Source: an uncultured Clostridia bacterium (GTDB lineage: Bacteria; Bacillota; Clostridia; TANB77; CAG-508). Taken from it: a DNA stretch of 64,000 bases. Both the position numbers and the translations under genes were made by a program. The stretch lies in contig CANQVF010000009.1 in assembly GCA_947627185.1 (NCBI GenBank), forward strand, positions 1 to 64,000, in the 5' to 3' direction. The notes beneath the pieces are model-generated. The model saw only the letters and a program-made list of their open reading frames with translations. It was not told the origin of the DNA and searched no databases. Below are positions 36,438 through 37,801 of the stretch, one piece after another; position 1 is the stretch's first letter; each line of letters starts with the position of its first letter.

Positions 36438-37631
36438 ATGGAAGAAATAAATAAAAGCTCTGGATATTGCACAATTACATATAAATTAAAAATTTATTCC
36501 AAATATGATGAATTTTTAAAGAAAACAAAAGCAGTATACAATGAAATTATTTTATTTTATTACAAATTACTTTTAAAAAATCAAGAATTCCTAAACTTAT
36601 CTAATCAATATTGTTTGCGAGAATTAGAGAAATTATCCATAAAAAATAAAAATGGAGAAAAACCAAAGAATTATTTAGATTTAGAAATTCCTACTTATTT
36701 GAGAAGAGCAGCTATTAATCAAGCTATTGGTTCTGTAAGAAGTTATATATCTTTATCTAAAAATAATAAAGAAGTATCAGAAACTAAGAATTTCAATTGT
36801 TCACCAATTTTTTATAAAGGAATGTATAAAAATTTCAATTCAAAATCTGTTGAAGTTAAATTATGGAATGGTGAAAAGTGGGAGTGGTATTTACTTAAAT
36901 TAAATGGAAAAAAGTTTGATAACACATTAGAAACCTTATCTCCAACGATATTAATTAATTCTAAATATATGATGCTTCATATACCAATAAAGCAAGTAGT
37001 AGAAGATGTAAGACCAGTAAGCATAAGGATGAAAGATGAAAATTTAAAAGTTTGCGGAGTGTGTTTTTCAAATTATGATGATTTTGCAATATGCACAATA
37101 ATTGACAAAAATGGGAAATTTGTAAAGTCAAAATTTATAAAAGGTGGAAAAGCATACAAAGATAGAACTTCAAAAATATTATCACAAATTAGAAAAAACA
37201 GAAAAATTTCTAAAGTAATCACAGAAGGAGATCACAAAACATATTGGAAAAAGCTTGAGCAAATAGATGATTATACAGCACATAAAGTTAGTAAAGAAAT
37301 AATTAATTTTTGTTTAGAAAATAAAGTTAAAGTTATATCTATAACAAAAATTGAAGAAAATGTAGCTGGTTTTGAAAGAAGAGTTGGAAAACATAGTCCA
37401 ATATATTTGAAAAGAAAAATAGTTAATAACTTACAGTATAAAGCATTTAAAAATGGAATTTTAATTACTACTGTAAGACAAAATTATACAGCAAATAGAT
37501 GTTATAAATGCAGAGCAAAAATAAAAAGAAAAGAAGCAAATTTTATTTGTGAAAATAATCACCAAGGAAATTATTATTTTAATACTTCAATGAACATAGG
37601 AAAAATGTGTTTAAAAAAATTTGGTTTATGA
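36438..37631 (+). CDS. TnpB/Cas12-like (IS605 OrfB family) protein with apparently inactivated RuvC site
   Basis: TnpB-like N-terminus (YKLKIYSKYDEFLKKTKAVYNEIILFYYKLL), YKAFKNGI, TANRCYKCRAKI...FICENNHQGNYYFNTSMNIG; catalytic D/E/D positions read C, T and Y. Confidence 0.8.
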   Translation: MEEINKSSGYCTITYKLKIYSKYDEFLKKTKAVYNEIILFYYKLLLKNQEFLNLSNQYCLRELEKLSIKNKNGEKPKNYLDLEIPTYLRRAAINQAIGSVRSYISLSKNNKEVSETKNFNCSPIFYKGMYKNFNSKSVEVKLWNGEKWEWYLLKLNGKKFDNTLETLSPTILINSKYMMLHIPIKQVVEDVRPVSIRMKDENLKVCGVCFSNYDDFAICTIIDKNGKFVKSKFIKGGKAYKDRTSKILSQIRKNRKISKVITEGDHKTYWKKLEQIDDYTAHKVSKEIINFCLENKVKVISITKIEENVAGFERRVGKHSPIYLKRKIVNNLQYKAFKNGILITTVRQNYTANRCYKCRAKIKRKEANFICENNHQGNYYFNTSMNIGKMCLKKFGL

Positions 37632-37765
37632 AATCCTAGCTAGAAATAACTAGGTAATCTTTTTCTGCTAAAAGCAAAAGAAGATTGGCTTGAGTATCGG
37701 CATTGTGTACTAAAAAAGTATGCATAGTGAATTGAGAAATCTAATAATGCTCAGAGTTTCCAAAA
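37630..37765 (+). ncRNA. Putative structured RNA (guide/omega-like RNA or EPS operon leader)
   Basis: Hairpin CCTAG(37635-37639)/CTAGG(37650-37654); 14-bp stem 37656-37669/37673-37686; TTGA...GCATT pairing with AATGC-TCAG (37746-37754) enclosing TGTGTAC/GTATGCA. Confidence 0.45.
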
Positions 37766-37801
37766 TATTATTTTAAATTTTTATTGGAGGATGTAGAAAT
37801 A

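Follow-up and report, generated by a model that had tools for sequence, protein, structure and literature searches.

The window, i.e., the whole stretch of 64,000 nucleotides that was analysed, contains a TnpB-like gene, an RNA segment and a set of polysaccharide genes arranged in this order on one strand. The TnpB-like gene (36438–37631, + strand) codes for a 397-aa protein, classified as a putative nuclease-dead protein of the TnpB/Cas12f fold (TldR-like) based on a Pfam match to Cas12f1-like_TNB (4.7e-7) and on its predicted structure. The RNA segment starts directly 3' of the stop codon of this gene (37631) and is followed by the first polysaccharide gene (37784–38572, + strand), encoding a bacterial sugar transferase (Pfam Bac_transf, 7.2e-64), the start of which is uncertain (TTG at 37784 or ATG at 37803). 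The polysaccharide operon continues on the + strand (38576–46205) with genes assigned by Pfam to glycosyltransferases, DUF1919, a Wzy_C-like polymerase or ligase and UDP-galactopyranose mutase. A polysaccharide operon followed in all complete loci identified in relatives, and in the loci of a second Clostridia genus the TnpB-like gene was itself the first gene of the operon, preceded by an inverted-repeat-flanked promoter of its own.

The predicted structure of the TnpB-like protein (pLDDT 82) was matched to Cas12f by Foldseek (E 2e-15, TM 0.60). In all 24 aligned members the RuvC-I and RuvC-III Asp residues were replaced and the RuvC-II Glu was variable; the zinc-finger cysteines were mostly retained. 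Judging from these residues, the protein is probably nuclease-dead. Three of the features by which a TldR is recognised were found here: a TnpB/Cas12f-type fold, the loss of the RuvC catalytic residues and a stable tie to non-transposon genes.

The genome from which the window comes holds one full-length copy of the gene. The closest relatives were detected in L002 (G017, 86%), L007 (G043, 65%) and L003 and L004 (about 45%), with more distant ones in L010 (G030, 38%) and in L005 from Blautia (35%). A search of the class revealed 17 loci in four of five genomes of the second Clostridia genus, with 4–5 loci per genome. No relatives of the gene were found in viral contigs; the phage search with the protein gave one match (22%), and the plasmid matches listed were TnpB/transposase genes (22–26%). 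One Blautia genome carries the gene and the RNA twice (L005 and L055), and there the next gene lies about 1 kb past the protein gene, the leaders being short elsewhere. Several partial copies of the gene were located at the ends of G030 contigs (C46, C49, C79, C6 and C59), this genome having more loci than its assembly resolves.

Upstream of the TnpB-like gene lies a 1.1-kb recombinase segment with 26-bp perfect inverted repeats at both ends. The left repeat (35243–35268) is 100% complementary to the right one (36397–36422), which represents the crossover site TTCGTAAATTATTTAACTTTACGAAA, and the segment between them encodes a tyrosine recombinase (35329–36276, - strand; Pfam Phage_integrase 3.4e-27 and Xer-type NCBIfam matches). 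A promoter-like sequence, TTGATT-17-TATAAT (36355–36383, + strand), located 13 nt from the right repeat, is directed towards the TnpB-like gene, which corresponds to the ON state. The terminator scan indicated a strong intrinsic terminator-like site (35121–35161, + strand) of 18 pairs followed by T8, which separates the left repeat from the upstream gene. In L002, which comes from a sister species, the homologous segment, 82% identical over 1070 nt, was inverted and its promoter-like sequence TTGCTT-17-TATAAT pointed away from the gene, whereas the counterpart in the window points towards it. The segment has the properties of a phase-variable invertible promoter, both orientations having been seen across species, not within one strain. 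The promoter claim rests on position and conservation, since promoter-like sites were no commoner than in shuffled sequences.

Inverted repeats likewise flank the segment before the gene in other relatives. For the second genus, the inverted-repeat sites were about 360 bp apart, the nearer one being located 44 nt before the start codon, and their cores differed from locus to locus. One extended -10 sequence (TGnTATAAT) together with 3–4 TGGTCA boxes was present in 16 of the 17 invertible segments, and the promoter-towards-gene orientation was seen in L139, L148 and L149. The TGGTCA sequences of the L135–L151 invertons form two pairs of direct repeats, 11–12 bp apart within a pair; these repeats keep their positions in most of the 17 promoters and are probably the sites of a DNA-binding regulator.

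The conserved structured RNA, an omega-RNA-like scaffold supported by covariation and by co-occurrence with the gene, extends from 37632 to 37761 (+ strand), as delimited by the covariance model R1. Its 5' part forms two hairpins, P1 (CCTAG/CTAGG, 37635–37639/37650–37654, spanning 37635–37654) and P2 (AATCTTTTTCTGCT/AGCAAAAGAAGATT, 37656–37669/37673–37686, spanning 37656–37686), the latter with 14-nt arms, 13 pairs, an AAA loop, one wobble and one mismatch; both are present 3' of the stop codon exactly as given in a preliminary description of this DNA made from the sequence. P1 was kept in relatives, e.g., as CCTAT/ATAGG in L003, and P2 was kept with another sequence in L007, L003, L010 and L004. 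A third hairpin, P3 (TGTGTACT/AGTATGCA, 37704–37711/37717–37724, spanning 37704–37724), lies further 3' within a long-range closing stem formed by TTGAGTAT (37690–37697) and ATGCTCAG (37747–37754), for which compensatory changes were found among the window, L002 and L007; all these elements lie on the + strand. The preliminary description had placed a long-range GCATT/AATGC stem here, and the relatives support the TTGAGTAT/ATGCTCAG pairing instead. It had also called the segment strongly foldable, which held in so far as the structure is conserved and covaries in relatives, but not for the folding energy. The latter was -33.7 kcal/mol vs. -28.0 +/- 3.4 kcal/mol for shuffled sequences (z -1.68), 10 of 200 shuffles being equally good, and by folding energy alone the window RNA is marginally unusual and unconvincing. 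The Rfam 15 covariance models gave no hit to the window RNA, with E values allowed up to 5.

The window-type RNAs have P1, P2, P3 and the long-range closing stem in common and differ in sequence. In the closing stem, TTGAATAT/ATATTCAG and TTGGGTAT/ATACTCAG replace TTGAGTAT/ATGCTCAG in relatives with the pairing kept. As P2 and P3 were offset in some rows of the alignment (A9), the arms of the window-type RNAs were paired by hand. Covariance analysis across homologous loci, proposed earlier as a check, went well beyond chance for the 17 homologous RNAs of the second genus: 96.8% of cells were paired and 16 pairs had changes on both sides, whereas partner-slid controls, in which relatedness was retained, reached a pairing of only 37–46%. 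None of 500 shuffles matched the observed pairing values in this set (n = 17), a count that is not a probability because the sequences are related. The closing stem of the second genus (TAGCAC/GTGCTA) has one variable pair and is otherwise invariant; its compensatory support comes from the window type and from the Blautia pair L005/L055, with AGCGC/GCGCT vs. AGCAC/GTGCT.

Two covariance models were built, R1 from six window-type RNAs and R2 from the RNAs of the second genus. The window RNA scored 129.5 bits against R1, the window being one of the sequences from which this model was made. R1 detected the corresponding site 3' of the gene in most loci of the second genus (E 0.0016 at best, 0.01 to 1 for several) and R2 matched L002 at 3.6e-7, all these E-values being rough; R2 did not find the window RNA itself. 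Sequence comparison therefore suggests that the RNAs of the window type and of the second genus are homologous across lineages. Within the genus of the window, the RNA and the TnpB-like gene were found in the same 4 of 53 genomes. In L004, the RNA (5844–5980) follows the inverted-repeat promoter segment and precedes the TnpB-like gene, being thus upstream of it, and only about 20–40 nt separate this gene from the first polysaccharide gene. A second short hairpin with a varying middle, GGAACGxxx-CCCTC-xxxCGTTCC, was noticed 20–60 nt past the RNA in L136, L137, L148, L150 and others; in many loci it directly precedes the first polysaccharide gene.

Directly past the closing stem lies the predicted guide-position tail AGTTTCCAAAAT (37755–37766, + strand), placed like the guide past the pseudoknot in an omega RNA. 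In the omega RNA of ISDra2, 1 nt separates the pseudoknot from the guide, and 12 of 16 guide nucleotides are ordered (PMC10097598). By this analogy the predicted guide is roughly AGTTTCCAAAAT in the window, while for the second genus it is roughly GAGTTTTAAAT. The window tail was identical in L002 and L007, had one change in L154 and was different in L003, L010 and L004. In the second genus the same 11–12 nt occurred in all 17 loci and the conservation ended there; variable, locus-specific guides were ruled out for this genus, as paralogous loci carry one and the same tail.

Exact searches for the 17-nt tail in the genomes gave no sites other than the 4–5 loci themselves. Outside the loci, ACGAGTTTTAA and GAGTTTTAAAT were found in four genomes at control frequency, in unrelated contexts and with no conserved second site, and CAGAGTTTCCAAA had no exact second site in G000, G017 and G043. 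The genome-wide searches revealed no conserved second tail site of at least 11 nt, the six window-type tails had no match above chance in the upstream region of their own operon, and the seed GAGTTTT was rare in the second-genus invertons (n = 17). The predicted guide of L010 had an 11-nt match elsewhere in G030 (C49:6451; L057, L188), within a gene that belongs to a different polysaccharide operon. This site was rejected as a target, about 4% of 11-mers with such G+C matching there by chance. A short target may exist, because guides as short as 6 nt suffice for TldRs (PMC13418256).

Taken together, the segment is read, with a probability of about two in three, as encoding the guide-RNA scaffold for a domesticated TnpB of the nuclease-dead, TldR-like kind, the pair being part of a polysaccharide operon under phase variation. 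The proposal of the preliminary description that a TnpB omega RNA is encoded here received good support as regards the scaffold, which is conserved, covaries, co-occurs with the protein across genomes and has an omega-RNA layout. It did not hold for an ordinary transposon TnpB, as the protein is nuclease-dead by sequence and part of a phase-variable operon, nor for an omega RNA as in transposons, the guide position being constant with one 11–12 nt tail in 17 loci. We infer the guide-RNA function, the target and the sign of regulation. With the switch ON, one transcript would give both the protein and the RNA, the RNA would be trimmed to a scaffold with a pseudoknot-like terminal stem and a short guide of about 11–12 nt, and the complex would bind matching DNA without cutting it and so alter transcription. 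The most likely purpose would be to keep another gene or locus repressed while one polysaccharide locus is ON, in parallel to the silencing of rival flagellins by flagellin-linked TldRs.

Several observations speak against this guide reading: the tail had no conserved second site in the genomes searched, one identical tail is shared by up to five paralogous loci, unlike per-locus guides, the E-values of R1 and R2 are rough and R2 did not find the window, and in L004 the RNA precedes the gene instead of lying 3' of it. An alternative is a cis-acting ribonucleoprotein leader, in which the dead TnpB would bind its RNA on the nascent operon transcript and alter elongation or termination as a counterpart of UpxY or LoaP; the tail would then be a constant element for recognition, with no part in guiding to DNA. 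LoaP-type processive antiterminators are linked to capsule operons. Such a leader would fit the position of the RNA, which in every case follows the promoter switch and precedes the polysaccharide genes, L004 included, and the constancy, across paralogous loci, of a tail without a match elsewhere; LoaP and other processive antiterminators are known to help transcription through long operons (PMC12691694). The layout and fold are, however, those of a guide-RNA system with a conserved tail of guide length, the tail differs in L003, L010 and L004, and the terminator scan of the window gave no terminator-like site between the RNA and the first polysaccharide gene. We consider this alternative rather unlikely, and to the same tentative degree the RNA–protein pair may be one whose guide has become frozen, i.e., a cis elongation/antitermination factor dedicated to phase-variable polysaccharide operons. 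An attenuator or antitermination leader in the form of a stand-alone hairpin, considered in the preliminary description, was weakened because there is no terminator-like site and because the RNA tracks the protein.

The finding that the 4–5 loci are the sole exact sites of the 17-nt tail would also suit a self-targeting feedback, in which the guide matches only the RNA genes and the complex binds all such leaders, damping or excluding polysaccharide expression. This is improbable, as the complex would hit its own locus too and no fixed flanking motif was found, the bases 5' of the tail covarying with the closing stem (ATGCTC, ATATTC and ATACTC in the window type). The weak folding z-score in the window would be expected if the segment were a plain leader hairpin or the relic of an omega RNA, without any function tied to the protein, but the covariation, the tail kept in 17 loci and the strict co-occurrence with the protein make this very improbable. 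An ordinary active IS605/IS607 TnpB with its omega RNA, standing beside the operon by chance, would account for the TnpB/Cas12f fold and is hardly credible, given the catalytic Asp missing in all members aligned, the same operon position in three lineages and the lack of an adjoining transposase in the loci listed.

Returning to the TldR-like guide scaffold, the csrA/fliC-linked TldRs are the closest published case. In Oscillibacter and Flavonifractor, the csrA/fliC-associated TldRs have the gRNA 3' of the gene, an upstream promoter inversion and several loci per genome (PMC13418256). They share with the loci described here the nuclease-dead TnpB, the RNA 3' of the gene, the promoter inversion just upstream and the number of loci. 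They differ in their flagellin targets, csrA/fliC neighbours and hin recombinase (PMC13418256), whereas the loci here belong to polysaccharide operons, have a tyrosine recombinase in the window type and a single constant tail, and gave no target. The phage-borne fliC-TldR of Enterobacter, which silences a rival surface structure and needs a guide of no more than 6 nt (PMC13418256), likewise has a dead TnpB, but neither a prophage context nor a matching target was found here. The ISDra2 TnpB omega RNA resembles the present RNA in its pseudoknot-closed scaffold directly before a short guide and in the adjacency of gene and RNA, and differs in its active nuclease and its other scaffold (PMC10097598), the RNA here being without an Rfam match. 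The best structural and profile matches to the protein were Cas12f and dCas12f-gRNA structures (PDB 9nzs, 8dzj and 9n9c), which come from CRISPR or other contexts and are 11–16% identical to it.

Bacteroides capsule loci have invertible promoters, with a UpxY/UpxZ regulator as the first gene of several polysaccharide operons. The loci described here are similar in the phase-variable promoter and in the regulator standing first in each of several polysaccharide operons, with a dead TnpB and an RNA in place of NusG-type antiterminators. No polysaccharide-linked TldR clade was found in the openly readable papers searched, and an earlier report may exist. If the main reading is true, RNA-guided transcription control, described for flagellin, would also cover the surface polysaccharides of gut Clostridia. 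With a DNA-inversion switch and an RNA-guided regulator combined at the head of several operons per genome, it would be possible to test directly whether surface coats exclude one another or are coordinated, and the scaffold and the tail are defined by the 17 natural variants closely enough for reporter tests in laboratory strains.

In L119 and L120, a recombinase-like gene was also seen to adjoin a 26-nt inverted repeat, CTCGTGAAATAGTACCATTTCACGAG, which in L120 is adjoined by a secreted-protein-like gene as well; these sites possibly represent another phase-variable locus.
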